The notes under the pieces: model-generated
What the model saw: the letters and a program-made list of their open reading frames with translations, nothing else
Databases searched by the model: none
What the model was told of the DNA's origin: nothing
Assembly (NCBI RefSeq): GCF_001613225.1
Contig: NZ_BDBY01000193.1
Location: forward strand, 62,001-126,000
Direction of reading: 5' to 3'
From: Nocardia pseudovaccinii NBRC 100343
GTDB lineage: Bacteria; Actinomycetota; Actinomycetes; Mycobacteriales; Mycobacteriaceae
Length of the DNA stretch: 64,000 nt
Translations under genes and position numbers: made by a program
In this document: positions 1,464-29,216 of the stretch, piece after piece
How positions within the stretch are numbered: position 1 is the first letter of the stretch
How the letters are laid out: every line of letters begins with the position of its first letter

Positions 1464-1475
1464 GCCACGACTATA

Positions 1476-1493
1476 ACAGAGCAATTGCTCTGT
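1476..1493. promoter_or_regulatory. Perfect 18-bp palindrome, probable TetR operator
   Basis: The sequence ACAGAGCAATTGCTCTGT is its own reverse complement and ends 12 bp upstream of the TetR start at 1463. Length, symmetry and position are typical of a TetR-family operator covering its own promoter. Binding by the adjacent regulator is inferred. Confidence 0.65.
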
Positions 1494-1682
1494 AATGAAG
1501 CGGCAGCATCCCGGCAAACCCCTCTTCCGCTACGCCACTGCATGTTTCGCCCGGTCACGGGTACTTTCACGGCGCGGTTACCGCAATGCGCGGACTTCGT
1601 TACGTTTCGGCGCGACGGACATACGATGAGGTACTGTCTGGTCCTCCCGCCTTGCCCGCACGAACAGAAACGGCGCCTGCGA

Positions 1683-2240
1683 ATGTCACGAGTGGTCACC
1701 AAGGAGCAGTACTTCGACACCGCTCTGGAGGTCTTGGCCGAACTCGGCTTCAAGGGCCTCAATATCGGCGTGCTGTGCCGCCGCCTCGGTGTCACCAGCG
1801 GCTCGTTCTACCATCATTTCGGCAGCTGGCAGGGCTTCGTGGACGCGCTGCTCGAGCATTGGGAGAACCGCCAGGTCATCATCCTGCGCACACTGAAATT
1901 CAACCAGGGCAATCCCGACGACGACATCCGCGCCATGTCCGACCTCGCCGCGGGCCTGCACCACGCCGCCGAGGCCGCGATCCGGGCCTGGGCCGGTAAT
2001 GACGAATCGGTCAATCTGGCACTCAAGCGGGTCGACGAATCACGCCGCCGCACCGTGCACAAGGCGATCAAAGGCGTTGTGGGCGATGAGGAGACCACCG
2101 CGGTGGTCACCGCACTCGGCATGTCGATGCTGATCGGCTACCAGCAGATCGCCGCGGGCGGGGAGGACATTTCACTGGACCAGCTGCTGGCCCAGTACGC
2201 GCGGTTGATCTACTCTCACGCCCGCCGCTCAGCCGAGTAG
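1683..2240 (+). CDS. TetR/AcrR-family transcriptional regulator
   Basis: A 185-residue protein with an N-terminal DNA-binding domain. The helix-turn-helix is near residues 25-45 (NIGVLCRRLGVTSGSFYHHF), and the following FGSWQGFVDALLEHW segment is typical of the family. The ATG at 1683 is preferred; an in-frame ATG at 1626 would add an unlikely Cys/Pro-rich leader. It is divergent from the TetR gene at 849-1463, so about 220 bp between them hold both promoters. Its 3' end overlaps the convergent antiporter gene by 12 bp. Ligand and targets are unknown. Confidence 0.82.
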   Translation: MSRVVTKEQYFDTALEVLAELGFKGLNIGVLCRRLGVTSGSFYHHFGSWQGFVDALLEHWENRQVIILRTLKFNQGNPDDDIRAMSDLAAGLHHAAEAAIRAWAGNDESVNLALKRVDESRRRTVHKAIKGVVGDEETTAVVTALGMSMLIGYQQIAAGGEDISLDQLLAQYARLIYSHARRSAE

Positions 2241-4088: not shown

Positions 4089-4225
4089 TGTGGCATTCTC
4101 GCAGAGCAAACACCCGGCTCGAAAAGACCATGCGGTACGTGACACGGACAGTGTGGTTCGGTTCCCCCGAATGGCTGTGGCGGTAGCGTTCGCGCGCAAT
4201 AGTTGTCGGCACGAAGGAGGTAGAC

Positions 4226-5116
4226 ATGGAAGAGTTTGCGTCCTGGCGGGCGAGCGGTCGGCGCCACACCCACCGCGGCCATCAGATCTTCTGGCAGGAC
4301 AGCAGCGGCGACGGTGCCGGAAATCTGCTCTGCATCCACGGTTTCCCCACCGCGTCCTGGGACTGGCACGCGGTATGGCCGGGTCTGCGTGAGCGGTTCG
4401 CGCGGCTCATTGCCCCGGATATGATCGGCTTCGGCTGGTCGGCCAAACCCCGCAATTACGATTACCGGATCGCCGATCAGGCCGATATCCACGAGAATCT
4501 GCTGCGTGAGCAGGGGATTTCCCGGACGCACATCCTGGCCCACGATTACGGCGACACTGTCGCCCAGGAGTTGCTGGCCCGCGACGCGCAGCGCCGCGCC
4601 GACGGCGACGATTCCCTGGTGATCGAATCGGTATGCCTGCTCAACGGCGGACTGTTCCCTGAGACCCACCGTGCGCGACCGGTGCAGAAGTTGCTGGCGA
4701 GTCCGCTGGGACCGCTGCTCGGGGTGCTGGGTACCGAGCGGGTGTTCCGTCGCAGCCTTGCCGGGGTCTTCGGTCCCGACACCCGACCCAGTTCCCACGA
4801 GCTCGATCAGTACTGGATCCTGTGGTGTAGCAAGCACGGGAAGAGCAACGGGCACAAGCTGATTCGCTATATGGGTGAGCGCAAGGCGAACCGGGCGCGC
4901 TGGGTGGGCGCCCTGGTCGACACACCGGTTCCGGTCCGGCTGATCGACGGTCTGCTCGATCCGGTATCGGGTGCGCACATGGTGCGCCGCTATCGCGAAC
5001 TGATCCCGGATCCGGATGTGGTCGAGTTGCCGAAGGTCGGGCACTATCCCCAGTTCGAAGCCCCCAGGGAGACCTTGGCCGCGGTGCTGGATTTCCACGC
5101 CAGCCGCGTGCGGTAG
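4226..5116 (+). CDS. Alpha/beta hydrolase of the MEST/PEG1 type
   Basis: A 296-residue alpha/beta hydrolase with an HGFPTASWDW oxyanion-hole segment. The nucleophile elbow reads LAHDYGDTVAQELLAR, so the nucleophile is probably Asp107 and not Ser. A C-terminal histidine is in KVGHYPQFE (about residue 273). The phrases SVCLLNGGLFPETHR and RARWVGALVDTPVPV match, from memory, the vertebrate mesoderm-specific transcript (MEST/PEG1) protein and its bacterial relatives more closely than haloalkane dehalogenases. An Asp nucleophile suggests epoxide hydrolase or dehalogenase chemistry; the substrate is unknown. A strong AAGGAGG site precedes the ATG. Confidence 0.82.
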   Translation: MEEFASWRASGRRHTHRGHQIFWQDSSGDGAGNLLCIHGFPTASWDWHAVWPGLRERFARLIAPDMIGFGWSAKPRNYDYRIADQADIHENLLREQGISRTHILAHDYGDTVAQELLARDAQRRADGDDSLVIESVCLLNGGLFPETHRARPVQKLLASPLGPLLGVLGTERVFRRSLAGVFGPDTRPSSHELDQYWILWCSKHGKSNGHKLIRYMGERKANRARWVGALVDTPVPVRLIDGLLDPVSGAHMVRRYRELIPDPDVVELPKVGHYPQFEAPRETLAAVLDFHASRVR

Positions 5117-5133
5117 ACGAACACCCCCGGTGT

Positions 5134-5149
5134 TATGGGGCGTCCCATA
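5134..5149. promoter_or_regulatory. 16-bp near-palindrome, possible operator of the TetR gene at 5160
   Basis: TATGGG and CCCATA arms are separated by GCGT, giving seven of eight symmetric pairs, 10 bp before the start of the TetR gene. The position suggests autorepression or a leaderless promoter region. Confidence 0.45.
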
Positions 5150-5159
5150 CTATGGCTAC

Positions 5160-5783
5160 ATGGCAGCGACACGCCGCACGAATAAGGAGGCTCCGGCGCG
5201 CCCACAGCAGCGTGACGCGCGCCGGAGGATGATCGCGGGCACGATCGAATCCCTGCGCATCCATGGCGCGAGCGCCACCAGTGTGGACCGGGTGCTGGCC
5301 GATACCGGTGCGCCTCGCGGGTCGGTCTATCACCACTTTCCCGGCGGTCGCACCCACCTGATCACCGACGCGCTCACCGCGGCCGGTGGTTCGATGTCGG
5401 AATTCATCGAAACGATCACCCGCGAGAACGATCCGGAGACCGCACTGGATATGTTCGTCGCACTGTGGCGACGGACCCTCGTCGACAGCGACTACCGCGC
5501 GGGCTGCCCGATCTTCGCGGTCGCCGTCGAAACCAACGACGACGCACCGGAATTCGCGGCATCTGCCGCCGCCGTCTTCGCCCGCTGGAATGCCGCGCTC
5601 ACCGATATGCTCAGCCGTCACGGCCTCGACCCGGTGCGGTCGCGGCGCATGGCCACTCTCACCGTCGCCGCTGTCGAGGGGGCGATCGCGCTGTGTCGCG
5701 TCGAGCGTGCCATCACTCCGCTCGAGGACACCGTCCACGAATTGCAAGTTCAGCTGACGAACGCCATCAGCGCTTCCGCGTAG
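5160..5783 (+). CDS. TetR/AcrR-family regulator
   Basis: A 207-residue protein with a basic N-terminus. The DNA-binding segment [20 protein letters not shown] lies around residues 40-60. A C-terminal domain contains YRAGCPIFAVAVE, typical of the LmrA/YxaF-like TetR branch. The start at 5160 (MAATRRTNKE) was chosen over longer in-frame options because it follows the operator-like repeat. It lies 43 bp after the MEST-like hydrolase and 200 bp before a crotonase-family gene on the same strand, so it may control either. The operator-like repeat at 5910-5931 differs in sequence, so it is not obviously this protein's site. Confidence 0.82.
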   Translation: MAATRRTNKEAPARPQQRDARRRMIAGTIESLRIHGASATSVDRVLADTGAPRGSVYHHFPGGRTHLITDALTAAGGSMSEFIETITRENDPETALDMFVALWRRTLVDSDYRAGCPIFAVAVETNDDAPEFAASAAAVFARWNAALTDMLSRHGLDPVRSRRMATLTVAAVEGAIALCRVERAITPLEDTVHELQVQLTNAISASA

Positions 5784-5899
5784 CGCCTGATCGATCCGGG
5801 TCTTTTCCGGTGACATTCGGCAGTTCGCCCCTGCGGAGAATGCCCGCTCGGAGCCGTCTTTCTGGGTATGCGGCCGACCGTGTTCGACAGGGCGTGCCC

Positions 5900-5931
5900 T
5901 TGACATCCCGATTATGGTGAGGACCATAATC
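5900..5931 (+). promoter_or_regulatory. Promoter with overlapping perfect inverted repeat
   Basis: A TTGACA box (5900-5905) is followed after 19 bp by CATAAT (5925-5930). Overlapping the spacer and the -10 box is an inverted repeat with 9-bp arms, GATTATGGT (5910-5918) and ACCATAATC (5923-5931), separated by GAGG. A repressor bound here would block the promoter of the crotonase-family gene at 5983. Confidence 0.6.
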
Positions 5932-5982
5932 AGCGTCGGGTGCAGCTTCCACCGCGCCCACCACGAACCCGAGGAGACGCCG

Positions 5983-6954
5983 ATGTCGCGAACAGCCGAG
6001 CTCGACTTGGAGACGATCGACCTGGCCCGGAACGGGAGAGTGCTCACCGCGACCATCGTCGCACCGCCGCTGAACTTCGTCACACCCGCCGTCGTACGGG
6101 ATCTGGACCTGCTCACCGCGGCGGCCGATACCGACGACACGGTCGGCGCGATCGTGCTCACGGGCGGTCTGCCCGGGCGGTTCCTCACCCACGCGGATCC
6201 GAGCGCGCTGACCGGCATGCTCGCGATGCCGCATCCGTTCATCCCGGCCCGCGCGGTGGCGCCGCTGATCCCGGTGCTCAACACGAGCCTGCGGGTACCG
6301 GGTGCGGCCCATGTGCTGGAGCGTTTCGGGGGCGGTCTCGGGACCGGCATGGTGTGGGGTTACCGCTGGAAGCGAACGACCCTGCGGATGAACCGATCTC
6401 GCGTGGTCTATCTGGCCGCCATCAATGGCCCGGCCCTCGGCGGCGGGCATGAGATCGCCCTCGCCTGCGATATCCGGTACGCCGCCGATGCCGAGCACGT
6501 CAAACTCGGTCAGATCGAATCGATCGCCAATCTCATTCCGGGCGGCGGCGGAACCCAGCGCCTGCCGCGACTGATCGGCGCGGCAAAGGCGATCGAGTTG
6601 ACCCTCGAAGGTGGACCGCTCAGCGCACAGCAGGGCCTGCGTCTGGGCCTGGTGCACCGGCTGACCTCCGAGAACGAGTTACTCGTTGAAACCGAGGCCA
6701 CCGCGACGCGTCTGGCCGCGCGCAATCCGGTCGTCATCAGCGAGCTCAAGCGCGCCATCTATTTCGGCACGGAGAGGTCGTTGTCGCGCAGTCTGAATCA
6801 CGAACTCGCCGCATTCCTGTCCACCGGCAGCAGTAAGGCGGCCACTCGCACCCAGGACGCCTTCTTCGACGATCTCGATCGGCTCGGCGACACACCGTTT
6901 CTGGCCGAGCCGAAGGCGTGGATCGACGGCACTCGCGTCGACCAGACCAGTTGA
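5983..6954 (+). CDS. Enoyl-CoA hydratase/isomerase-family protein
   Basis: A 323-residue crotonase-superfamily protein, longer than the 260-residue norm. The extra length is a loop around residues 75-125 between the first and second oxyanion-hole regions. The core AAINGPALGGGHEIALACDI and the following IPGGGGTQRLPRLIG segments are classic hydratase/isomerase features. In the loop around QIESIANLIPGG, Glu may play the part of the second catalytic acid. The ATG at 5983 follows a GAGGAG site. It is preceded by its own promoter and operator and followed after 58 bp by a molybdopterin oxidoreductase gene. Its role is in fatty acid or other CoA-ester catabolism; the substrate is unknown. Confidence 0.82.
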   Translation: MSRTAELDLETIDLARNGRVLTATIVAPPLNFVTPAVVRDLDLLTAAADTDDTVGAIVLTGGLPGRFLTHADPSALTGMLAMPHPFIPARAVAPLIPVLNTSLRVPGAAHVLERFGGGLGTGMVWGYRWKRTTLRMNRSRVVYLAAINGPALGGGHEIALACDIRYAADAEHVKLGQIESIANLIPGGGGTQRLPRLIGAAKAIELTLEGGPLSAQQGLRLGLVHRLTSENELLVETEATATRLAARNPVVISELKRAIYFGTERSLSRSLNHELAAFLSTGSSKAATRTQDAFFDDLDRLGDTPFLAEPKAWIDGTRVDQTS

Positions 6955-7012
6955 GCATCCATATTTCGACCGGCGGTTTCGCTTCCGTCGACGACAACTC
7001 GGAGGAGCATCG

Positions 7013-9301
7013 ATGAGTACCGCCGCGCAGCAAGGCAGCCGAGTCGGCAACAGCGCGCGACCTGGACGCAATGATGCCGCGGCACAACAGGAATGGCATA
7101 AGACCGCATGCATCCTGTGTGAGAACAACTGCGGCCTGCTGATCCAGCTCGACGGCCGCAGCTTCGCCAAGATCCGCGGCGACAAGGACCACGTCGCCTC
7201 GGCCGGATACACCTGCAACAAGGCGCTGCGCCTGGACCACTACCAGAACGGCGGCACCCGCCTGACCACCCCCCTGCGCCGCGAAGCCGATGGCAGTTTC
7301 ACCGAAATCGACTGGGATACCGCGATTTCCGAGGTCGCCGCCCGACTCACCGCGGTCAAGTCCACCTATGGCGGCGACAAGATCTTCTTCTACGGCGGCG
7401 GGGGACAGGGCAACCACCTGGGTGGCGCCTACAGCGGCGCCCTACGCCGGGCACTGGGCAGTCGCTATCGCTCGACCGCGCTCGCCCAGGAGAAGACCGG
7501 CGAGGGCTGGGTCGACGCGCATTTGACCGGCGGCCACACCACCGGCGATTTCGAACGTGCCGAGGTTTCTGTCTTCCTCGGCAAGAATCCCTGGCAGTCA
7601 CACGGTGTGCCGCGTGCCCGCACCGTCCTGCAGCAGATCGCCAAGGATCCGGCCCGCACCATGATCGTGCTCGATCCGGTGCGCACCGAAACCGCCGATC
7701 TCGCCGATATCCACCTGCAGGTCCGCCCCGGCACCGACGCGTGGTGCCTGGCCGCGATGCTCGCCGTGCTGGTGCAAGACGATCTGCTCGATCACGCATT
7801 CCTCACCGAACACGCCGACCAGGTCGAGGCCGTCATCGCGGTGCTGCGCGATATCGATATCGCGTCTTATGCCGAAACCTGCGGTGTGCCAGTGGAATCG
7901 CTGCGCTCCGCCGCCCATCGGATCGGCACCGCGAGCAGTGTGGCCACCTATGAGGACCTGGGTGTCCAGCAGAGCCCCAACAGCACCCTGATCTCCTATT
8001 TGAACAAGCTGCTCTGGCTGCTCACCGGAAACTTCGCCAAACCCGGTGCCATGCAACCACATTCGTGGATGGCGCCGTTGGCGAACTACAGCCGTGACAT
8101 CAAACGCAGCCCGGTGACCGGCGCACCGATCCTCGGCGGCATGCTGTCGTGCAACTCGATCGCCGAGGAAATCCGCACCGATCACCCCGACCGGTTCCGG
8201 GCGATGATCATCGAATCCGCGAATCCGGCACATTCACTCGCCGATTCGACCGCCTTCCGCGCCGCACTGGACGCACTGGATCTGGTGGTGGTCATCGATG
8301 TCGCGTTCACCGAAACCGCACGCCACGCCGACTATGTGCTGCCCGCGGCCAGCCAGTTCGAGAAGTGGGAGGCCACCTTCTTCAATCTGGAGTTCCCGCA
8401 CAACACCTTCCATCTGCGCGCGCCGGTACTCGAACCGCTCCCCGGCACATTGCCCGAACCCGAGATCTACGCGCGCCTGCTTCGTGAACTCGGCGTCGTC
8501 GGTCGTGCCGAGCTGACGGTGCTGCGGACCGCCGCGAAACTCGGCCGCCGCCCCTACGCATTGGTCTTTGCCGCATTGTTGGCGATGAACAAGAAGATCG
8601 GCGGACTCGCCCCCTACCTGCTCTATGAAACCCTCGGCCCGACCCTGCCCGATGGTGCGCGCTCGGCCGCTGTGTTGTGGGCGCTCGCGCAGCGCGTCGC
8701 GAAGGTGCATCCGGCCGCAATGCGTCGAGCGGGTCACCTCGATGCCGATGCGCTGTTCGACGCCATCCTCGCGGGCCGCTCCGGAGTCACCTTCACCGTC
8801 GATGACTATCCGGACGCCTGGGACTATGTGCCACACCCGCGCATCCCGTTGGCGATCCCGGAATTGCTGCACGCGCTGCGCCAACTCCCGGCCACGCCCG
8901 CCACGCACACCAGTCCCGAATTCCCCTTTGTCCTGTCGGCCGGGGAACGGCGATCCTTCACTGCCAATACCATTTTCCGCGACAACAGCTGGCGTCGCCG
9001 CGATCCGGAGGGCGCGCTGCGCCTCAGTCCCGACGATGCCACCGCCCTCGGTCTCACCAGCGGTGAGCGCGCCCGCATCACCACCCGGCGCGGCAGCGCC
9101 GTGGCCGCGGTAGAGATCAACGACCGCATGCGGCCCGGGCATGCCTCGCTGCCCAACGGGCTTGGCCTGGACCTGCCCGATGGCACCCGCACCGGTGTGG
9201 CCGCGAATGAGCTCACCGATGCCGGTTGGCGCGATGCGATCGCCGGAACACCGTGGCACAAGCATGTTCCGGCCCGTATCGAACCGCTGCGCGAGGTGTA
9301 G
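7013..9301 (+). CDS. Molybdopterin (bis-MGD) oxidoreductase, formate-dehydrogenase-like
   Basis: A 762-residue single-chain oxidoreductase of the DMSO-reductase superfamily. The N-terminus has CILCENNCGLLI and YTCNKA, the cysteines of a [4Fe-4S] domain, followed by TTPLRR and the large Mo-bis-MGD domain. A C-terminal dinucleotide-binding domain is around residues 640-750 (NTIFRDNSWRRRDPEGALRL). No transport signal or electron-transfer partner subunit is adjacent, so it is probably cytoplasmic. A GGAGGA site precedes the ATG. A paralogue of similar layout lies at 16391-18544. Substrate is not predictable; such actinobacterial proteins are usually labelled formate-dehydrogenase-like. Confidence 0.88.
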   Translation: MSTAAQQGSRVGNSARPGRNDAAAQQEWHKTACILCENNCGLLIQLDGRSFAKIRGDKDHVASAGYTCNKALRLDHYQNGGTRLTTPLRREADGSFTEIDWDTAISEVAARLTAVKSTYGGDKIFFYGGGGQGNHLGGAYSGALRRALGSRYRSTALAQEKTGEGWVDAHLTGGHTTGDFERAEVSVFLGKNPWQSHGVPRARTVLQQIAKDPARTMIVLDPVRTETADLADIHLQVRPGTDAWCLAAMLAVLVQDDLLDHAFLTEHADQVEAVIAVLRDIDIASYAETCGVPVESLRSAAHRIGTASSVATYEDLGVQQSPNSTLISYLNKLLWLLTGNFAKPGAMQPHSWMAPLANYSRDIKRSPVTGAPILGGMLSCNSIAEEIRTDHPDRFRAMIIESANPAHSLADSTAFRAALDALDLVVVIDVAFTETARHADYVLPAASQFEKWEATFFNLEFPHNTFHLRAPVLEPLPGTLPEPEIYARLLRELGVVGRAELTVLRTAAKLGRRPYALVFAALLAMNKKIGGLAPYLLYETLGPTLPDGARSAAVLWALAQRVAKVHPAAMRRAGHLDADALFDAILAGRSGVTFTVDDYPDAWDYVPHPRIPLAIPELLHALRQLPATPATHTSPEFPFVLSAGERRSFTANTIFRDNSWRRRDPEGALRLSPDDATALGLTSGERARITTRRGSAVAAVEINDRMRPGHASLPNGLGLDLPDGTRTGVAANELTDAGWRDAIAGTPWHKHVPARIEPLREV

Positions 9302-9489
9302 CTTTTCGTGGACGAGCCACGCGGTGATCGCATCATTTCCGTGCGATCGAACAGATTCGCCCAGATCGGACAATTACGGCACACATGTCGGCGCTGATAC
9401 CGATCTGCGTGCGGCTGGGCCTGTGAGCAACCGAACTTCGTGACGCTCCAGTGCTTTTCGCGCACATGGCGACACCGTACAGTCGGCCC

Positions 9490-9876
9490 ATGGTTTTCCG
9501 GCTCGAGCTGCAACCTGCCCCGCCCCTGCCCCTGACACCCAACTGTGTGGTGCATACCGGGACGGTGCGACTATTCGTCACCGGCACGCTCATCCACACC
9601 TCCGGAGCCCCCGCCGAACCGTTCGGCTTCTTCCTTCCGAACACCCGTCCCCTGCCCGAAGACGCGCCCGAACCGCACCTGTGGGCGGAGATGCATCTGA
9701 TGACCGCCACCGCCACCGCGGCATCCGGAAACTTCCCGTTCGGCATCACCCACACCCAGGCGGCCTACGTCCCGGACCCGCGCGCCGGCCTGCACCGCTG
9801 GCTCCACCTCACCGCCGCCGCCCACCCCGCCCGAGAACTCCGCCTCGGCTACCGGGTCACGGTTCAAACCCCCTGA
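9490..9876 (+). CDS. Hypothetical protein
   Basis: About 128 residues from the ATG at 9490, with no recognised domain. It is rich in Pro, Thr and His (for example EDAPEPHLWAEMHLM), has no membrane segment and no signal peptide. The frame is open from 9451, so a longer start is possible. Codon third positions are strongly G/C, as in neighbouring genes. The antisense frames are also open, which lowers confidence. Confidence 0.5.
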   Translation: MVFRLELQPAPPLPLTPNCVVHTGTVRLFVTGTLIHTSGAPAEPFGFFLPNTRPLPEDAPEPHLWAEMHLMTATATAASGNFPFGITHTQAAYVPDPRAGLHRWLHLTAAAHPARELRLGYRVTVQTP

Positions 9877-19416: not shown

Positions 19417-19524
19417 ATGATTCTGCCGACCGCCGTCACTGCGGCCGCCGTCGCCCTTGCGACGCTGGCGGGTCTCTCGGCGAGACGCCGAATCTTCAGA
19501 TCGTCAGTCGCAAGGCAGCCGTGA
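19417..19524 (+). CDS. Possible 35-residue membrane peptide
   Basis: A short frame, ATG 19417, encodes MILPTAVTAAAVALATLAGL followed by a basic tail: one hydrophobic helix with an Arg-rich C-terminus. No clear ribosome site is present. It could be a leader or small membrane protein ahead of the cassette, or a chance frame. Confidence 0.25.
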   Translation: MILPTAVTAAAVALATLAGLSARRRIFRSSVARQP

Positions 19525-19553
19525 AATCTTGGTGAAACGTTGGTGAGACGCCG
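19521..19553. promoter_or_regulatory. Three 11-bp direct repeats, PHO-box-like
   Basis: GTGAAATCTTG, GTGAAACGTTG and GTGAGACGCCG follow one another without gaps. The 11-bp spacing and GTGAAA/TTTCAC core resemble sites of OmpR-family response regulators such as actinobacterial PhoP (PHO boxes) or MtrA. They lie 73-105 bp before the first gene of the GH25/PLD cassette, a suitable place for an activator. Assignment to a regulator is inference. Confidence 0.5.
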
Positions 19554-19581
19554 CGGCCGAAGACTACTTGCACAAGGCGCG

Positions 19582-19600
19582 GATCCCCGAAGTGGGGATC
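19582..19600. promoter_or_regulatory. Small hairpin before the cassette
   Basis: GATCCCC and GGGGATC arms with a 5-bp GAAGT loop end 25 bp before the ATG at 19626, just upstream of an AAGGAG ribosome site. It may be a 5' leader hairpin or operator. Confidence 0.4.
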
Positions 19601-19625
19601 GCTCCGAAAAGCAAGGAGTCAGCAG

Positions 19626-20450
19626 ATGGGTGACAGTCTTTTCGCGGACGTCTCGTACTTCCAGGTTCCGGTCGACGACTCGTACCCGCACCGCATTCTG
19701 AGCTTCCGGTCGAACGACGGAACTTTCCGAGACCCGAATTTCGCGGCCAACTACGCGTGGGCGTCTCGGGCGGCGGACGAGGGCAGGCTGGCCTGTTTCA
19801 TCGTCTACTTCTACTGGCGCCCGAATTGGCTGTACACCGCGAACACGCACCGGGACATGGTGATCCGCGCGGGCGGGCCGCATCCGCGGATGATCGCGAT
19901 GATCGACGTGGAGTCGGGCGGAAATCCGGGCGGCGACCAGTCGGACGGGATCAACAGGGCCTATTGGCAATTGGCGGACTGGCTGGGCGACCGGCGCCGC
20001 GTCATCGGCTACGCCAACCGCGGCGACTTGTTCTCGATGTGGCCGCAGCGGCCCGACGGCCTGCGGGTGATCGGCGCGGGTTACGGCGCGAATCCCAACT
20101 TGCCAGGGCAGATAGCCCATCAGTACACGGACGGCCGGGGGTACGGCGGCGGCCTGCCCGAAGGGTGTGCGCCGTTTGGGAACTGCGACATGAACGCCGC
20201 AAACGGGCTGTCGCCGGAGGACTTCGCCGCACAGTGCGGCGTCGGAGTGGAGGAGGAATTCATGTCCGTGTTGAACGAGGCGGAGCAGCGTGAGCTGCTC
20301 GACAAGACGCGCGACATCTGGGTCCAGCTGCGCGGCCCGGAGGGCGCCGGCTGGAAACAGCTTGGCACCAACAGCGCAGGGCAGAATCTCACTCCGGTCG
20401 ACGCGCTGGCCGAGGTGGTGGACGCCGTTCAGGAGCTGGAGAAGAAGTAA
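19626..20450 (+). CDS. GH25-like lysozyme domain protein, phage endolysin-like
   Basis: A 274-residue protein. Residues 3-215 look like a glycoside hydrolase 25-type barrel: FADVSYFQ (Asp8) and MIAMIDVESGG, with the Asp94-x-Glu96 pair expected for GH25 muramidases, then HQYTDGRGYGG near the end. From memory it most resembles lysin A domains of mycobacteriophages. Residues 225-274 form a short helical tail (EEFMSVLNEAEQRELLDKTR) also seen in phage proteins. There is no signal peptide, as in holin-dependent endolysins. It is the first gene of a tight three-gene cassette, 36 bp before the next start. It would cleave peptidoglycan glycan strands. Confidence 0.78.
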   Translation: MGDSLFADVSYFQVPVDDSYPHRILSFRSNDGTFRDPNFAANYAWASRAADEGRLACFIVYFYWRPNWLYTANTHRDMVIRAGGPHPRMIAMIDVESGGNPGGDQSDGINRAYWQLADWLGDRRRVIGYANRGDLFSMWPQRPDGLRVIGAGYGANPNLPGQIAHQYTDGRGYGGGLPEGCAPFGNCDMNAANGLSPEDFAAQCGVGVEEEFMSVLNEAEQRELLDKTRDIWVQLRGPEGAGWKQLGTNSAGQNLTPVDALAEVVDAVQELEKK

Positions 20451-20486
20451 CGACTGATCGGGCTCACGACACTCATGGAGGATCAC

Positions 20487-23132
20487 ATGAAGCACGACAT
20501 TGAAACCGCCCCTGCCGCAACCTCTCCGGTTCTCGGTCATGCGGCGCGCAGCCTGTACAAGGCGACGCTGGTGCCGCTGGAGATCGAGACGCCGATGGTC
20601 GGCCAGGCGATCACCAAGCAGGGCTTCCTCAACCAGCTCGCATTGACCCCTGAGGAAATCGACAGTGCCGCAGGCATGGCCACAACGGCGCTGTCGCCGG
20701 GCGAAGGCGAGCCTGCCGCGCAGTTGCCGCGGCCGCTGTTGGCCGACTTCGCCCGGCGCGAGCCAGGGCTTGCCCCGGACGTCCATGCGCTCGCCGAGGT
20801 TCCGCTGGAGCGGTTGCGGGCGTTCGGACAGGCGGTGGTGTCGCTGCGGCGCGACCGCGTGCAACAGGACCCGTCCGGCGAGGCGAGCCGTGCGCTGCAC
20901 CGCGCGCTGGTGGCGGTCAAAGGGCTGGAGGTCAACACGTCGGTCCCGAGGTTCGGGATGATGAACCTGGAGCGTCTGGAGATGTCGCCCGCGGGCATCG
21001 AGCGAGGCGAGCTGATTGCGACGATACCGCTTGCGCCGCAAGAAGAGACGGCCGTCACGCAGAAGGAGTGGTCGGTCACCCACAAGGAATTCACCTCGAT
21101 CGTCACCGATTCGCTGGAAAATCTGAGCGAGACCGGGGTGACCGACAACACGGAACTGGCCCAGTCGACCACCTCGCAGCAGGAGCATGCGAACCAGTTC
21201 AACATCACCGGCACCGTGCAGGGCGGCATCCCGGTGATCTCCGGGTCGGTGACGTCGAGTTACGGCGGGCAGGGTAAGGAGTCGCAATCGGCCACCGAGA
21301 GCCGCAAGCACGCCACCGCCCTGACCCAGAAGGCCTCGACACGCTCCAAACAGGAGCACAAGGTCACCATCTCCACCACCACCGTGACCGGGACCGAGCA
21401 GACCACCACGCGGAAGCTGAAGAACCCCAGCTCAACCGCCCCCATCCGGATCGACTACTTCAGCATGATGCGCAAGTGGCAAGTGCGGCTGTACCGCTAC
21501 GGTCTGCGGGCGACCTACGACATCGTGCTGCCCGAGCCTGCCGCGTCCCTGCGCGCCGCCTACACGGAGCTGGACTGGTTGAAGAAACAACAGGGCCCCT
21601 TCGTGTTCAATGTGCTCCACGACGACATCTCCGACGCACTGGTGGAAGTGGGCAAGGACTCGGCGGGGAATCCGATCTACAAGCCCAAATACGTACTGCT
21701 CGGCGAACAGTACGGAGTTTTCCTCCCCGCGCCCAAGAGCCCGACGGCCGAGCAGTTCGTCCAGGACAATTTCCGGGGAGCCGACGATGACGGCGACACG
21801 GGGTGGTTTTTCAAAGAGGTCCCGTTCAACCTCAACGATCCCGATTACGAGATCGACAACATCGCGCTGCAGGTGATGTTGGGCTATGTCGGCCATGACC
21901 GCCGGTTCTATGTGTACGGCACGGCGGGAAACCAGGACGTTCACGGCGACGACGTGGGCAAGACCTTCGACTTGAAGGATCTGTGGAATCCGGCGGCGCC
22001 GTTCATGCAGGGCGCCCGCGGCCCGCAGAAGTTCACCTTCTTCTACTCCGGATTCTCCCAGGGCCAAGCGTATTTCAAACTCAACCTGCGGCGGACCGAG
22101 GAGACGCACGACCGTTGGGTGGGCGATGTCTGGAATGCGCTGCACAACGCCGCGCAGGCCCGCTACTACGCCGCTCAGCAGGACATCGCGAACAGGATCA
22201 CCGCGCTGGAAGACAAATTGAACGGCGTCGACACGCTCACGCTGCGCCGCGGCGAGAACGACGAAATCATGAAAGGGGTGCTGCGCTACCTGCTCGGCGG
22301 CAAGTTCCCGACCATGCCTGCCGACGTGGCCAAGGCGTTCGCCGACGCCAAGGTCGACCTGGCGCACGGCACCGCCTTCGACAGCGGAGTGGTCGGCCCC
22401 GACTCCGCGCTGTGGAGCGTCGTGCAGCAGTACGAGGACCGGGTGCGGTTCGTCAACCAGGCCATCGAGTGGGAGAACGTCACCACGTTCCTCTACTCGT
22501 ACTTCTGGGATCTGCCCGAGAGCTGGCCGTTCATTCGCGACATCGAGCACCCGGACCCGAACAGGCAGGCGTTCCTGCGGGCGGGCAGCGCGCGAGTGGT
22601 ATTGACCATTCGCAAGGGCTGGGAGACCCGCTGGGCCAACTTCGTCGAACGGGGCCTGATCGACGACCCGAATGATCCCGGCGACTCCGTGCACTGGTCC
22701 ATAGCCCAGGAGATAGCCGCATACGACGACCGCAACTATCCCGGAATCGCGCCCGCCAATCCGGGTAAGAACGCCGCCAGGTTGCAGGACGCGGTGTTCG
22801 CCAACTGCTCGACCGTGATCGGTCCCAGCGCAGGCCCGGTCAGCATCCCGGTCGACACCAGCGCCGGGTTCGTCGTGGGCGCCAAGGTCGTGATCGACGT
22901 GGTCGACGGCCTCGACCACCGTCAGGAGGTCCAGACCGTCACCGCCGTTCCCGTTGACGGCAGACACATCGTGGTCGGCGCCCTCGACAAGGCACACACC
23001 GGAACGGCCGCCACGCCGTTCCCCATCGTGCAGCCGGGGGAGAAGGGCGAGTTGATCGCGGAGTGGAACGAGTACACCCCGTCCTCGGGCACCGACATCG
23101 CGGTGACGAGCGACCTGACCGAGATCGCGTGA
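20487..23132 (+). CDS. Large protein of unknown family
   Basis: An 881-residue protein from ATG 20487, chosen because GGAGG lies 5 bp before it (an ATG at 20475 is also in frame). There is no signal peptide or membrane helix. Residues 1-185 are mixed helix. Residues about 190-315 are very rich in Ser, Thr and Gln with alternating polar residues (ITGTVQGGIPVISGSVTSSY, KVTISTTTVTGTEQTTTRKL), suggesting long amphipathic beta strands. A KWQVRLYRYGLRATYDIVLP segment and an aromatic-rich domain follow. The last 130 residues look like a beta domain with a PVDTSAGFVVGAKVVID phrase. I do not recognise the family. The beta-rich part could be structural, as in phage tail proteins, or pore-forming; neither is shown. 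Confidence 0.8.
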   Translation: MKHDIETAPAATSPVLGHAARSLYKATLVPLEIETPMVGQAITKQGFLNQLALTPEEIDSAAGMATTALSPGEGEPAAQLPRPLLADFARREPGLAPDVHALAEVPLERLRAFGQAVVSLRRDRVQQDPSGEASRALHRALVAVKGLEVNTSVPRFGMMNLERLEMSPAGIERGELIATIPLAPQEETAVTQKEWSVTHKEFTSIVTDSLENLSETGVTDNTELAQSTTSQQEHANQFNITGTVQGGIPVISGSVTSSYGGQGKESQSATESRKHATALTQKASTRSKQEHKVTISTTTVTGTEQTTTRKLKNPSSTAPIRIDYFSMMRKWQVRLYRYGLRATYDIVLPEPAASLRAAYTELDWLKKQQGPFVFNVLHDDISDALVEVGKDSAGNPIYKPKYVLLGEQYGVFLPAPKSPTAEQFVQDNFRGADDDGDTGWFFKEVPFNLNDPDYEIDNIALQVMLGYVGHDRRFYVYGTAGNQDVHGDDVGKTFDLKDLWNPAAPFMQGARGPQKFTFFYSGFSQGQAYFKLNLRRTEETHDRWVGDVWNALHNAAQARYYAAQQDIANRITALEDKLNGVDTLTLRRGENDEIMKGVLRYLLGGKFPTMPADVAKAFADAKVDLAHGTAFDSGVVGPDSALWSVVQQYEDRVRFVNQAIEWENVTTFLYSYFWDLPESWPFIRDIEHPDPNRQAFLRAGSARVVLTIRKGWETRWANFVERGLIDDPNDPGDSVHWSIAQEIAAYDDRNYPGIAPANPGKNAARLQDAVFANCSTVIGPSAGPVSIPVDTSAGFVVGAKVVIDVVDGLDHRQEVQTVTAVPVDGRHIVVGALDKAHTGTAATPFPIVQPGEKGELIAEWNEYTPSSGTDIAVTSDLTEIA

Positions 23133-23142
23133 GGAGGCTCGG

Positions 23143-24771
23143 ATGGCGACACCCAAGGCAGCCCCGCCGCCTCCGCCGGTATTCACTTCCTGTTCCGGAG
23201 ACGCGGCCGCGATGGCGGCGCTGCCGCGGCTGCGCCCGGATGTGGACGTGGCCCAGGACAAGCCCGGCGGCCACGTCGCACTCGCGGTGCGCGGCCGCAC
23301 GCCCGCGTCGTGGTTTCCGAGAAGCCTTCCGCCCGCTCCCGGAAACGAGGTGATCGCGTACATCTACGGGACTTGCTTCTTCCGAGACCTGGCGGCCGCG
23401 TTGGAGACCGCGTCGACCGCGGACCACCGCGTCTACATTCTCGGCTGGAACTGCGAGCTGAAGACCGAACTGGTCGGCGGAAAGACCTTGCAGGACTACC
23501 TGGCGAGGCCCAAAGTTCAGGTCCGAGCCATGCTGTGGGACGGAGTGGTGGCGCGCATCACCGGGAACGTGTCGATCAGCGTCCCGGTGGACAACCCGGG
23601 CACGCACCATTTCCTCAACACGCTGCCGCACGGCGCATCCATTCTGGACGCGAAACACGCCCAACCGGCGACGCATCACCAGAAGCTCATCGTGGTGCAG
23701 GGCGAGCGCGGCCTGATCGCCTTTCTCGGCGGCATGGACATCGCTCACACCAGAAGCACCGTGAACGCCGATCTCGGTGAACCGTGGCACGACGTGCATC
23801 TGCGCGTCACCGGTCCCGCGGCGCGCGACTGCCTGAAGGTTTTCGAGGAACGGTGGTTGGACCATCCGGAACACGAGGTATTGGACCGCAAGCTGGGGGC
23901 GCCGGTGAGCCCGTCGTTCCCGCCGCCGACCCCGCGGCGGGCGCTGCCGAGCGTCACCATTCCGGACCGTGTGCCGCGTGCGCCCGGACGGTGGGCTGCC
24001 ATCGGGCGGACGTATCCCAAGCCCGCGGCCTTCCCGACCTCGGCAGGCTATCGATTCGCACCGGACGGCGTCTATACCGCGTGGGATTTGATCCAACACG
24101 GCATCGCCACGGCGCAGCGCTTCATCTACCTCGAGGATCAGTACATGATCAGCCGCATGGCTCGAAAAGCGCTGCTGGACAAAGTCGGACAGCAAGATTT
24201 CGAGTTCCTGCTGATTCTCATGAACGGGTCGGGCGCCGCGAGCTCCGACTACAAGATGCTGATCGCCGAGCGCAACCGCTTCCGTGAGGATCTGCGAAAA
24301 GTCGACAGCACCGGAAAGAAGTGGGGGATGTACATTCTCAAGAAACCGCCCGACCGGGAGCGGCAAAAGTCGTGCGGGTCCTACGCCCACTCGAAGACGT
24401 GGATATTCGACGACGAGTACGCCGTCGTCGGCTCGGCCAACTGCGAGAACCGCGGATACACGCTCAATACGGAGATTGTGGCGGGAATCGCGGACGACGC
24501 GAACGTGCACGCCACCGGACACGGGTTCGCCAGAAGACTCCGGATCGGACTCTGGCACAAGCACTTGGGCGTGCCGCATGCCGACGTGTTCGACTGGCGG
24601 AAAGGTCTGCCGCTGTGGACCACCCCGCCCGGGAGCGCAATGGTCGAGAAAAGCGACGCGATGGAGCCCGAACCGGACCTCGGCGGCAGGTTTCTGCCGG
24701 ACGCGAGCGAGATGCAGGCGTACGAAACGGCGTGGAATCGCCTGATAGACCCGGACGCACGCCTCCCGTGA
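23143..24771 (+). CDS. Phospholipase D-like (HKD) protein
   Basis: A 542-residue protein of the phospholipase D superfamily. The first HKD site is HHQKLIVV (His179, Lys181) with GGMD at 197-199; the usual Asp six residues after the lysine position is Gln186. The second is YAHSKTWIFDDEYAVVGSAN (His416, Lys418, Asp423) followed by NCENRGYTLNTE. Together they form one active site for phosphodiester cleavage, usually of phospholipids. A Pro-rich N-terminus and lack of a signal peptide are notable. It starts 10 bp after the large unknown gene and ends before a strong hairpin, so it closes the three-gene operon. Nuclease-type PLDs are an alternative but are usually shorter. Confidence 0.85.
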   Translation: MATPKAAPPPPPVFTSCSGDAAAMAALPRLRPDVDVAQDKPGGHVALAVRGRTPASWFPRSLPPAPGNEVIAYIYGTCFFRDLAAALETASTADHRVYILGWNCELKTELVGGKTLQDYLARPKVQVRAMLWDGVVARITGNVSISVPVDNPGTHHFLNTLPHGASILDAKHAQPATHHQKLIVVQGERGLIAFLGGMDIAHTRSTVNADLGEPWHDVHLRVTGPAARDCLKVFEERWLDHPEHEVLDRKLGAPVSPSFPPPTPRRALPSVTIPDRVPRAPGRWAAIGRTYPKPAAFPTSAGYRFAPDGVYTAWDLIQHGIATAQRFIYLEDQYMISRMARKALLDKVGQQDFEFLLILMNGSGAASSDYKMLIAERNRFREDLRKVDSTGKKWGMYILKKPPDRERQKSCGSYAHSKTWIFDDEYAVVGSANCENRGYTLNTEIVAGIADDANVHATGHGFARRLRIGLWHKHLGVPHADVFDWRKGLPLWTTPPGSAMVEKSDAMEPEPDLGGRFLPDASEMQAYETAWNRLIDPDARLP

Positions 24772-24803
24772 GGGTGTCGACGGCGAGCCTGTGCCTCTCG
24801 ATT

Positions 24804-24841
24804 GCGACTCGCGCACCCCGTTTGCGGGGTGCGCGAATCGC
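24804..24841 (+). terminator. Terminator hairpin after the GH25/PLD cassette
   Basis: Seventeen-base arms (24804-24820 and 24825-24841) with one mismatch enclose TTTG, starting 32 bp after the PLD stop. No T-run follows, as is usual for terminators in GC-rich actinobacteria. Confidence 0.7.
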
Positions 24842-24959
24842 AGGCGGGAAGCATGTGTCGGCGTGTGCCCGCATCCAGGGATCGCAAACTGTCCGGTCTT
24901 TCGTTTCTGGGATTCTGTCCGGCCGGTTTGAGGCATTCTTGTAGTGGTGCTGGGGCCGG

Positions 24960-25916: not shown

Positions 25917-27131
25917 TTACTGCACCACACACCCCGAGGCTTTTGGGGTGCCGGCGAAGCGGTCGGCGAGGAAGTTCATGCCGCCGAAGGCTTCGCCTGC
26001 CGCGGCTCCGATGTGCGTCGGGAACAGCGAGTGGATCGCGGTGAGGGTGGCGCCCTGAGCGCAGTAGGCATCGACGAGGGCGGTGTAGCCGGCGACGGGG
26101 ATCTTCTCGTCGGCGACGCTGTGGTACAGGTACAGCGGGGTGTCGGGGGTGGTACGGCCGAGTTCATTGGGCATGGCGGCGTTGCGGAAAGCGGGCTGCG
26201 CCAACAGATTCGGCACGGCGGCCAAGTCGTCGACGTGGATGTCGGAGTATTCCTGAGCCAGATCCGCCCCGCAGGAGGAGGTGTCTGCGGCGAGCAGCGC
26301 GCGGCGGCCCCGGTCGTTCAGCAAGTCGGCCAACCTGGAGTCGGGTTCATTGCGGGCCAGCCCGAGCAGAATCAGTATCGCCCCCACGGCACCGTCGGCG
26401 CGTTGTGCCACGGCCGGGATATCGGTGGGGATTCCGCCGGCGCTGGTGCCGACGAATCGCACGTCTGGTGCATATTCCTGACGCAACTGCGTGGCCCACA
26501 GCGTGGCGAAGGCTCCACTCGAGTATCCCCAGGCGCCGATCGGGCTCGAGGCATCGATGCCGGCTGGCGGGAACGACAGTGCGGCCCGGATTCCGTCCAG
26601 GACTCCACGCCCGGATGTCACGCCGTCGAAGAGCCGGGACTGCGGCCCTTCGTAATCGCTGACCACGACGGCCCATCCCCGCAGCAATGCGTCCGCGATG
26701 AACGGCGCATCCTGCATGGCGCTCGCCATGTTGCTGTCGCTTCCGCCGCGCAGCGTGGCCGACGGCGCGCACCGGGTGTCCAGACTGTTCTCGGGTACCT
26801 GGTACGACAACACCGGCCGTGGCCCGTTCCAGGGCACCGGCGGCACCAGCACCGTGGTCACATCCAGCTGCGGATGCTCTTCGGAATCGGTTGTGCGATA
26901 ACGCAATTGCCACGCCGCCACAGGTATCGGCAGACCGAGCAGTGGGATCGTCCGGGCCCCGAGCACCGCGCCGTTCGGATGTGACGCGAGATCGGGGGGT
27001 GCGGCATAGAAGGGATCGTCACCAGGAGACAGCACCGCGGCTCGCGCGACCGGCATAGACAACGCTGCCGCCAGCATGATCATGGCGAGCGTGAGGGGCG
27101 CAAACCATCGCAGACCGATCCGCCACCACAT
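25917..27131 (-). CDS. Secreted lipase, LIP family
   Basis: About 404 residues from ATG 27131. A signal peptide is clear: WRIGLRWFAPLTLAMIMLA, then AAALSMPVARA with likely cleavage near ALA-type AxA. The mature enzyme has GAWGYSSGAFATLW, the GxSxG nucleophile elbow, plus SVADEKIP (catalytic Asp) and FPTHIG (His) as in secretory lipases of the LIP family found in Nocardia and mycobacteria. It should hydrolyse acyl esters outside the cell or at the envelope. An in-frame ATG at 27242 would hide the signal peptide. It is divergent from the secreted hydrolase at 27696. Confidence 0.87.
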   Translation of the reverse strand: MWWRIGLRWFAPLTLAMIMLAAALSMPVARAAVLSPGDDPFYAAPPDLASHPNGAVLGARTIPLLGLPIPVAAWQLRYRTTDSEEHPQLDVTTVLVPPVPWNGPRPVLSYQVPENSLDTRCAPSATLRGGSDSNMASAMQDAPFIADALLRGWAVVVSDYEGPQSRLFDGVTSGRGVLDGIRAALSFPPAGIDASSPIGAWGYSSGAFATLWATQLRQEYAPDVRFVGTSAGGIPTDIPAVAQRADGAVGAILILLGLARNEPDSRLADLLNDRGRRALLAADTSSCGADLAQEYSDIHVDDLAAVPNLLAQPAFRNAAMPNELGRTTPDTPLYLYHSVADEKIPVAGYTALVDAYCAQGATLTAIHSLFPTHIGAAAGEAFGGMNFLADRFAGTPKASGCVVQ

Positions 27132-27695
27132 CACTGGTTGCCAGGGCGCGCCGTCGACCGGCAGACCAGGCGCACCGGTAGCTGAACACGTTGCGCGGCA
27201 GGCATTTTCCCGATACGTCGACAACAGATGCCCGGATTCCATCACGCCTCCCGCGTCCAACTATCCGACGCGCAGGCACTCTGTGCCCGCACCAACCGGT
27301 CACTCCACTGAGGGTTTGGATCACGGTAGCATAACGATTTCATATCTACAGTTATAAAGTTTTCAACAAATGTTGCGGCCGCCCAGAAAGCAGAAAAAAA
27401 GCTCTCCCGGACATAGCCGATACGGGTGTTTGCTCACGATATGGCGGGCAATTGCTTGGCATTCGACGCTATCGCAACCAGTCTGTGATTTGTGCACGTC
27501 GGCGCGCCTCGCAAAATCTGATGTCGGAGGCACAACATCGATCTGACCGGGGAAAGCATGGGTGAGGCTCGGGGAAATCGCTGCCTCGCCGAGCCGGTTT
27601 CAGCAAACGCCAGTATGGTGCTCGTTCGAGACCCCGAAAATGGCTGTGCGGCGGAATCAGGGATGCGTACACGGAGGTCGTGGGCAGGAGATGCG
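27132..27695. other. Divergent promoter region between two secreted hydrolase genes
   Basis: About 560 bp without a supported gene. It includes an AT-rich island at 27330-27400 (runs such as ATTTCATATCTACAGTTATA and an A-tract near 27395), unlike the surrounding GC-rich DNA. Promoters for both flanking genes probably lie here. Confidence 0.5.
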
Positions 27696-29216
27696 ATGCC
27701 GATAACATGGATTCGATGGCTCGTTGTCGGGGTCATATCGGCAGCTGCATTCGCCACCTTGCCCGTGGGACCGGCGAGCGCCGATCCGGTCGATGACATC
27801 CCGGGTGGGCTGGAGTCGTTCTATCACCAGCAGCTGGACTGGAAGCCGTGTAACGACGCGGCGCTCGACAGCGCGGGGGCTCAGTGCGCGGGCGTTGTCG
27901 TACCGCTCGACTACAACCGACCGGAATCGCGCACGCTGACCGTAGCGATCTCGCGTATCCCGGCCACCGACCCTGAACTCAGACGCGGGATCATGCTGTC
28001 CAACCCCGGCGGTCCCGGCGGTCCGGGCCTGAGCATGATCGCCGACCTCCGGGATCGGCTGACACCGGATGTCCGTGCCCGGTACGACCTGATCGGCATG
28101 GACCCGCGTGGTATCGGCCGATCGGACCGAATGAGTTGTGCGCTGCCGCTGCCCACCATGTTGTTCTCGGCCGGCTTCGACGCCTTCGGCTATGCGCGCG
28201 ACGCCACCCTGGCCGCCGCGCTCGCGGCTTCCTGCGTGGCACCCGACCCCGAGAAGGCTCGGTCCATCACCACCCGCAATACCGCCCGCGACATGGATGT
28301 CATCCGAAGTGCATTCGGTGAACACGAGCTCAACTATTACGGCGACTCCTACGGCACCTACCTGGGCGCGGTGTACACGCAGATGTTCCCTGGGCACGTT
28401 GACCGGATCGTGCTGGACAGCGCCATCGACCCGGATCGCTACTGGATCGGCACGTACCAGGACATGGGTGCGGTAAACGAGGCCGGGCTCGACGACTGGG
28501 CGATCTGGGCGGCCCGCCACGATGCCGACTACCACTTCGGTACCAGCGGACCGCAGGTCCGAGCCTTTGTCGAGGACATGATCCGACGTGCCGCCACCCA
28601 TCCGGTCATCGGCAACGGCTATCTCATCGACGAGCACACCGTTCCGATGATGCTGCTGTCGCTGTTGTCGAATCCGAAGAAGAACACCAACCTCGCCGAG
28701 CTCGTGCGGACCGTATCCGACGCAGTGTCCGGGCTGCCCATCGACATGGAGCAGCTGAAAGCGAAGATCAACGGTCCCGTTCCGCTAGATGCCTCGGGCA
28801 TGGCCGCGGTCCTGTGCGGCGACAAGGCCGCACCCCGAGATCTGGCCTGGTATCGCCGCAATATCGAAAGCGTCCGGGCGACCCAACCGGTGTTCGGTGC
28901 GTTCGCCAACAACATCACCGCCTGCGCGTTCTGGCCGGACCCGGTCGAGCCCCCCACCGCCGTGCACAACTCGACACCAGCCCTGATCCTGCAGGCGACC
29001 CGCGACACCCGCACCGCCTACCAGCAAGGCCTTGGGCTGCACCAGGACCTGACAGCGTCACGAATGATCACACTGGCAGACACCCGCGTTCACGGCGTCC
29101 TCGGCTCCGACCTGAGCCACTGCGTGAACGACGTCGTCAACACCTACTTCCGTGACGGCACCCTTCCCGATACCGACCTCACCTGCCAACGCGACTCCAA
29201 CCATCTTCCCGACTGA
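27696..29216 (+). CDS. Secreted alpha/beta hydrolase, TAP (tripeptidyl aminopeptidase) family
   Basis: A 506-residue protein with an N-terminal signal peptide (ITWIRWLVVGVISAAAFATL, then PVGPASADP). The layout is that of the Streptomyces tripeptidyl aminopeptidase family: QLDWKPC and VPLDYNRPE early on, NPGGPGGPG oxyanion loop, MDPRGIGRSD, the nucleophile elbow YYGDSYGTYLG, then LILQATRDTRT (Asp) and RVHGVLG (His) at the C-terminus. It probably cleaves peptides or esters in the envelope or medium. The ATG at 27696 follows CAGGAG and puts the signal peptide at the very start; longer starts do not. Confidence 0.87.
   Translation: MPITWIRWLVVGVISAAAFATLPVGPASADPVDDIPGGLESFYHQQLDWKPCNDAALDSAGAQCAGVVVPLDYNRPESRTLTVAISRIPATDPELRRGIMLSNPGGPGGPGLSMIADLRDRLTPDVRARYDLIGMDPRGIGRSDRMSCALPLPTMLFSAGFDAFGYARDATLAAALAASCVAPDPEKARSITTRNTARDMDVIRSAFGEHELNYYGDSYGTYLGAVYTQMFPGHVDRIVLDSAIDPDRYWIGTYQDMGAVNEAGLDDWAIWAARHDADYHFGTSGPQVRAFVEDMIRRAATHPVIGNGYLIDEHTVPMMLLSLLSNPKKNTNLAELVRTVSDAVSGLPIDMEQLKAKINGPVPLDASGMAAVLCGDKAAPRDLAWYRRNIESVRATQPVFGAFANNITACAFWPDPVEPPTAVHNSTPALILQATRDTRTAYQQGLGLHQDLTASRMITLADTRVHGVLGSDLSHCVNDVVNTYFRDGTLPDTDLTCQRDSNHLPD

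Follow-up and report, generated by a model that had tools for sequence, protein, structure and literature searches.

Polymorphic toxin systems, as outlined in the sections of Zhang et al. 2012 (PMC3482391) drawn on here, combine a constant component for trafficking with interchangeable enzymatic ones and have a broad, patchy spread. The type 10 secretion system (T10SS) is described, in the sections of PMC10847048 drawn on, as releasing Tc toxins via lysis of a subpopulation of cells. Here, we describe a three-gene cassette with likenesses to both in Nocardia pseudovaccinii NBRC 100343. The stretch of DNA analysed (the window) is 64,000 nt long and corresponds to positions 62,001–126,000 of NZ_BDBY01000193.1. 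The genes encode a GH25-type lysin, an 881 aa protein referred to here as P881, and a phospholipase D (PLD)-family protein. Our preferred reading, to which we assign a probability of about 0.48, is that the last two belong to a two-gene polymorphic toxin family (P881 plus cargo) that here stands behind a lineage-specific domesticated phage lysin.

19626–20450, + strand: GH25-type lysin (phage lysin A), 274 aa, with PHROG and phage-record matches
20487–23132, + strand: P881, proposed cargo carrier or translocator, 881 aa, no known family
23143–24771, + strand: PLD-family putative cargo, 542 aa, Pfam PLDc

P881, as a putative trafficking protein, and its neighbours share the features of polymorphic toxin systems named above, and differ from the systems outlined in PMC3482391 in that the toxin candidate is encoded by an adjacent gene of its own, not by a C-terminal domain. 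The family to which the constant part belongs has no name, and inspection by eye of the genes behind that for the window PLD revealed no immunity gene (the other loci were not searched for immunity genes). A constant region with varying modules is nevertheless what was found for P881, as separate genes and with modules that are putative toxins. With the T10SS, as presented in the same sections of PMC10847048, the cassette shares a phage-type endolysin that is putatively co-encoded with large signal-less proteins; it differs in lacking a convincing holin or spanin (spanins being a T10SS component of diderms), in being Gram-positive, and in having SARP-like repeats where the T10SS has RoeA control. 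A lysin of this kind also precedes a TcB/Rhs protein in another Nocardia.

Points of contact with extracellular contractile injection systems (eCISs) are that P881 and eCISs co-occur in Streptomycetaceae, that some P881-type proteins have LysM N-termini and that the P881 model includes a tail-like barrel, whereas the sheath gene of the window genome is on another contig and three P881-positive Nocardia have no sheath match. Binary A/B toxins, which we take to have a separate enzyme gene beside that of a large partner, are comparable in layout, and the P881 core is S/T-rich and all-beta at low confidence; unlike them, P881 has no PDB sequence match, is followed by many unrelated enzymes, has no visible signal peptide and would form a pore only hypothetically. 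The Streptomyces umbrella toxins (PMC11062931) are likewise polymorphic toxins of actinobacteria, but the sections of that source drawn on describe a TAT signal, ALF repeats and lectin-bearing partners, none of which was found in P881 by the scans made.

Layout of the cassette

The three genes are real and operon-like in layout. All are on the + strand, separated by 36 bp (GH25–P881) and 10 bp (P881–PLD), and a Shine–Dalgarno-like run precedes each start; the tight packing described in the original prediction, which was made from the sequence of the window, agrees with the ORF coordinates. An alternative ATG at 20475 would extend P881 to 885 aa, but as GGAGG sits between the two candidates, the start at 20487 is favoured. 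No signal-peptide-like N-terminal hydrophobic stretch was seen in a simple Kyte–Doolittle scan (no dedicated predictor was used), and none had been predicted.

P881 and its partner genes

The counts and tree are based on 26 P881 loci. L042, with a fragmented P881, was omitted, duplicates were counted once (L054 is L033, and L052 is in the place of L008), and the rows for L036, L065 and L039 are partial, L036 because the contig ends there. In all 26 loci, the window included, P881 is followed by a gene on its own strand. The distance from the P881 stop codon to the partner start is –4 to +16 bp in 21 loci, with overlap of the stop codon in nine, and +30, +40, +62, +86 and +100 bp in the other five; these offsets depend on the start codons that we chose. 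The partners fall into ten groups:

PLD, two loci (window and L023): Pfam PLDc above cut-off
Second, more distant PLD, one locus (L034): Pfam PLDc above cut-off
Group B, nuclease-like, seven loci: by eye
PT-TG-like, four loci: sub-cut-off Pfam match in the two tested (0.0017 and 0.0013)
Papain-like (CHD), four loci: invariant C, H and D in three aligned members, by eye
GH5-like, two loci: by eye
Lipase-like (GxSxSG), two loci: by eye
Group F, two loci: Streptomyces and a cyanobacterial plasmid
Tlde1-like, one locus: sub-cut-off match (1.5e-5)
Rv2525c-like (GH-like), one locus (L036): match above cut-off (1.8e-12)

L041 was assigned to group B at 34 % identity to L039. Toxin-type domains in the partners are thus hinted at, and further sub-cut-off matches were to CdiA_C (0.02, in a partner) and Ntox4. 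Groups CHD, PT-TG and B gave no useful PDB sequence match. The window PLD matches Pfam PLDc at 5.8e-10 and has a complete HKD motif at aa 416 and an HxK at aa 179 in which Q replaces D.

The original prediction suggested that the three genes could form one functional unit, asked whether they stay together elsewhere and named their never being neighbours as a refutation. That refutation largely applies: no GH25 match was found in any of 40 further loci that have P881 itself or a distant P881-like gene, and a conserved trio was rejected. The P881–PLD pair does recur, in L023 with a PLD of the same family (39 % identity) and in L034 with the more distant one. By sequence comparison, the conserved unit is P881 plus some next gene.

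Gene neighbourhoods of more distant relatives were also recorded. Behind the relative in the haloarchaeon Natronorubrum there is a patatin gene at 164 bp, with a small overlapping ORF in between. A Chryseobacterium plasmid (L062:7277–15249) has, in a row, genes for an M15 peptidase, a patatin, the P881-like protein and a 713 aa protein whose end looks toxin-like by eye. In L027 (14254–16413) and L028, the third gene, after the PT-TG-like partner, appears by eye to encode a protein resembling a Tat-exported phospholipase C.

Exchange of partners

Mapping of the partner groups onto the P881 tree required 11 changes, whereas shuffled labels needed 17.7 and the lowest possible number is nine, so partners mostly travel with P881. 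The strongly supported branches force three changes for group B and two each for PLD, papain-like and F, and the four-member clade that includes the window (support 100/99) has PLD, PLD, Rv2525c-like and B partners, i.e. three kinds. The tree, to the extent that its branching can be trusted, implies partner swaps. Group F members from Streptomyces and the cyanobacterial plasmid are 57 % identical, and the papain-like group is common to Nocardia and Rhizobacter (44 % identity).

Distribution and structure of P881

No significant match to P881 was found in Pfam, NCBIfam, PHROGs or PADLOC, and there was no PDB sequence match with either a single sequence or a profile. A match of aa 776–867 to Ntox22 (20.7 bits against a cut-off of 25, in 4 of 19 members) was sub-cut-off and not used. 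Homologues with approximately 46–61 % identity are found in Actinomycetota, Paenibacillus, a Rhizobacter metagenome-assembled genome and a cyanobacterial plasmid. Scanning of genome contigs yielded 21 loci, and plasmid records added two close homologues, from Nonomuraea and the cyanobacterium Aulosira. Matches were obtained in 13 of 148 genomes surrounding that of the window, five of them (window included) being close and covering most of P881. When 394 genomes were sampled evenly across the class, 12 had a match to the P881 profile, in some cases a marginal one, and that of the window genome alone was full-length. In distant relatives encoded on plasmids (Natronorubrum, Chryseobacterium, Cupriavidus, rhizobia and others), the match is mainly to aa 530–747; in those from actinobacterial genomes it also takes in the core, approximately aa 150–390. 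The family, as delimited by these searches, is patchy and far-travelled.

The best conserved parts are aa 161–360, 561–600 and 641–720, with a mean column identity of 81 % over aa 148–362, and the core (aa 190–315) is S/T-rich (33 % versus 10 % elsewhere). The structure prediction suggested earlier was run with AlphaFold2 (AF2) and gave no reliable fold (pLDDT 58). Foldseek found no PDB match to the model at E≤0.001, and 11 matches in BFVD at that threshold had TM-scores of at most 0.17. In VIA-align, a C-terminal barrel (approximately aa 760–860) resembles phage tail and baseplate barrels (best Z 10.6 over 83 residues, root-mean-square deviation 4.5) and aa 416–537 match a jelly-roll (best Z 8.1), while most of the 50 rows were below Z 8. 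The P881-type proteins of L053 and L054 (Nocardia) and L050 open with LysM-type repeats (L054 by eye); in L053 and L050, Pfam finds these together with a sub-cut-off Phage_tail_X match.

The GH25-type lysin

The GH25 protein has no match in Pfam or NCBIfam up to E=1 and no useful PDB sequence match, and was identified from a PHROG endolysin match (4e-20) and from 550 matching phage records. Mycobacteriophage lysin A is top-ranked among these, at 58.6 % identity and 95 % coverage. The motifs DVSYF (aa 8) and IDVES (aa 93) are present, within which we presume the GH25 catalytic residues to lie. On this sequence evidence, the protein is a domesticated lysin A of the mycobacteriophage type, as foreseen in the original prediction, where a domesticated phage lysis gene was among the possibilities.

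Relatives of GH25 are present in 69 of the 148 genomes around the window's own, many matching over the C-terminal stretch only. The P881-positive Nocardia G047 and G076 have copies away from P881, and G012 and G043 have none. The window genome includes two partial copies, C207:83927–84313 and C135:1–249, one with an internal stop and the other cut at the contig end.

The surroundings of ten copies were examined, namely the window, a second copy in the same genome (contig C190) and eight from other Nocardia, several of which share surroundings and are not independent. Two of the latter also precede toxin genes. In L107 (G079), a TcB/Rhs-type protein (SpvB, 2e-95) starts 39 bp after GH25, and in L102 (G021), GH25 heads a same-strand run that includes a protein with an Ntox5 C-terminus (4.8e-10). 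The L107 protein is a 2365 aa SpvB/TcdB/Rhs protein (L107:9301–16398); L105 and L108 share the flanks and have no toxin gene after the lysin. The L102 run (859–9647) also holds small sheath-like and tube-like proteins, identified by eye with Pfam silent, and possibly encodes a compact contractile particle. For the remaining seven copies, inspection of the neighbours by eye revealed no toxin, with the Pfam scan limited to one regulator and one gene on the C190 contig (no match for the latter); the L056 contig ends 625 bp behind GH25.

Sequence elements around the cassette

Three further elements were defined, of which the original prediction had noted repeats before the cassette and a strong hairpin after it:

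19521–19553, + strand: SARP-type operator candidate, three 11 bp direct repeats (TGARA core plus 6 bp)
19417–19524, + strand: weak holin-like candidate ORF, 35 aa, one hydrophobic stretch and a basic tail
24795–24850, + strand: GC-rich hairpin after the last gene

The regulator-like repeats were confirmed. Their core begins 104 bp before the GH25 start; the window has a single occurrence of the pattern, and 100 shuffled sequences have none. A triple repeat that agrees at 14 or more of the 15 core positions is within 200 bp upstream of nine of the ten Nocardia GH25 copies in either orientation; because the pattern was derived from the window, the fair count is eight of nine, and several loci share surroundings. 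The same score was reached by approximately 1 % of 3000 random 200 bp pieces of the same sequences, and the regions upstream of 22 other P881 genes scored at most 11/15. SARP operators of three heptamers with 4 nt spacers are a known form, reported in the sections of PMC5930380 drawn on. The window repeats fit this layout (heptamer direct repeats with an 11 bp period) with a heptamer that differs from that of PMC5930380. In L103, a gene encoding a BTAD domain precedes GH25 by about 1 kb, and L104 has a homologue of it. We infer that the repeats would bind a SARP.

The candidate holin ORF encodes one transmembrane stretch and its end touches the operator repeats; it may be a holin or a chance ORF, and a similar small ORF is absent upstream of the five other GH25 copies scanned. 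The hairpin is strong (–42.8 kcal/mol, z –7.7), as predicted, and was not called in the terminator scan because no T-rich tail follows it.

Flanking regions

The prediction that this is not an ordinary prophage, with no phage structural, integrase or portal gene nearby, held. None of the ten flanking ORFs searched matched a structural, integrase or portal family in PHROGs (the remaining window ORFs were not scanned), five matched PHROGs of unknown function and two a DmsA 'moron' family, and neither phage records nor viral contigs yielded P881. A conventional prophage was rejected on these grounds. No empty insertion site was found when the right and left flanks were compared in G030 and G014. 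Similarity on the right stops at 25918 in G030 and at 25945 in G014, and the best left-flank matches are on other contigs. The block at 25917–29214 of the window is kept in both genomes at 80–86 % identity, with the similarity ending on the cassette side.

Proposed mechanism and alternative explanations

We propose that P881 would be the constant component, a carrier that, most probably as an oligomer, brings its partner to or across a target envelope, and that the next gene would encode the cargo enzyme, here a PLD that would damage target membranes. GH25, under a conserved SARP-type operator, would be co-expressed with P881 and PLD, and by opening the wall of some of the producing cells the lysin would free the toxin, as T10SS lysins free Tc toxins. 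Carriage or translocation of cargo by P881, release by lysis and the identity of the target are the steps that we infer. Joint lysis of an envelope by GH25 and PLD, as originally envisaged, is not needed, as the lysin may be a release enzyme; the weapon-like logic of that prediction is supported. Since GH25 is missing from the 40 other P881-type loci, lysin-assisted release would be specific to the window's lineage.

Several results weigh against this proposal. In addition to that absence of GH25, a recognised toxin gene is near only three of the ten GH25 copies (window included), and there is no convincing holin, the 35 aa one-transmembrane ORF being the sole candidate (a genome-wide holin search was not made). 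Most toxin-domain matches (Tlde1, PT-TG, CdiA_C and Ntox4) are sub-cut-off, the GH5-like, lipase-like, Rv2525c-like and patatin partners could be ordinary hydrolases, and there is the lack of a recognised immunity gene behind the window PLD. P881 was modelled poorly (pTM 0.31, with the pLDDT given above), and the core alone (aa 148–362), predicted to be all-beta, reached a pLDDT of 47. PLD and F have two rows each in the tree, so that their two changes do not exceed the level given by shuffled labels, and L059, L043 and L052 are on long branches of unsure placement, which weakens the F and papain-like counts. The association with sheath genes in Streptomycetaceae, described below, would permit another delivery route.

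That route would be an eCIS encoded elsewhere in the genome, of which P881 and its partner would be cargo or accessory proteins. In a search for PF04984, covering 14 of the 21 genome-contig P881 loci, a sheath match was found in 19 of the 23 genomes given, four of which have distant P881-like genes only. A match at E≤1e-20 was present in each of the 11 P881-positive Streptomyces and Kitasatospora genomes searched, compared with 43 of 100 other sampled Streptomyces (Fisher 2e-4, or 0.008 with close P881 sets collapsed to six), although these genomes are not independent and the background is Streptomyces only. The window genome itself has sheath and eCIS_core matches on one contig (G000:C110:12000–51000; L115 and L116), in a genus where only 8 of 88 genomes have a sheath match, and the LysM repeats with the sub-cut-off Phage_tail_X match in L053 and L050 and the tail-like barrel of the model (Z up to 10.6) also fit. 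However, the link in Nocardia is weak, with 2 of 5 P881-positive genomes against 6 of 83 others (p 0.06) and no match in G012, G043 and G047. The window P881 is on contig C193 and not on C110, and hence is not encoded in or beside the eCIS locus; a whole-genome search found no second P881 match, and none of 37 crudely called ORFs in the eCIS region is P881-like. Given the co-occurrence, we keep eCIS as a rival, and do not treat it as a requirement; on balance we consider this explanation unlikely. We also think it improbable that P881 is the scaffold of a secreted feeding complex that presents lipases and glycosidases to polymers. The PLD, lipase-like, GH5-like and Rv2525c-like partners, the jelly-roll match (aa 416–537, Z about 8) and the lack of recognised immunity genes would suit such a role, but no export signal was seen, and the papain-like family and the Tlde1, PT-TG, CdiA_C and Ntox4 matches, all sub-cut-off, suggest toxins.

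The neighbourhood may alternatively be due to chance, with a domesticated lysin under its own promoter, serving autolysis or left by a prophage, beside an unrelated P881–PLD pair. The seven GH25 copies with no toxin gene recognised beside them (by eye), the absence of GH25 from the other P881-type loci and the partial copies in the window genome all agree with this. Against it are the 36 bp gap, the shared strand, the placement of the only operator-type site in the window before GH25, and the two other GH25 copies that precede toxin genes, and we regard coincidence as doubtful. A defence or abortive system, also raised in the original prediction, was rejected and is very improbable. A lysin and a phospholipase together would kill the cell, and PADLOC gives a weak match of the PLD to DrmC; that match is limited to the generic PLD active-site region, PADLOC is silent on P881, GH25, six partners and one distant P881-like protein, and the diversity of partners fits offence better.

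Implications

A literature search, which included few subscription journals and is no proof of unpublished status, found no title or abstract start naming such a family or a coupling of lysin and toxin in Nocardia. As there is no profile for P881 in Pfam, NCBIfam, PHROGs or PADLOC, a carrier family was missed, if the two-gene toxin reading is true. A toxin-carrier family with ready-made effector swaps would then have been overlooked, and unknown effectors could be found by reading the gene next to P881. There is a small chance that P881 founds a large, so far undescribed toxin-delivery class, with near members across several bacterial phyla and distant ones in haloarchaea and Bacteroidota, in which an S/T-rich beta pore or needle would move the adjacent enzyme and, in Nocardia, a SARP-controlled phage lysin would release it by bursting a few cells, as a Gram-positive parallel to the T10SS. 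The two-gene toxin reading would also bear on how signal-less toxins leave Gram-positive cells, as phage lysins and a SARP-type switch would be tied to the release of large toxins.

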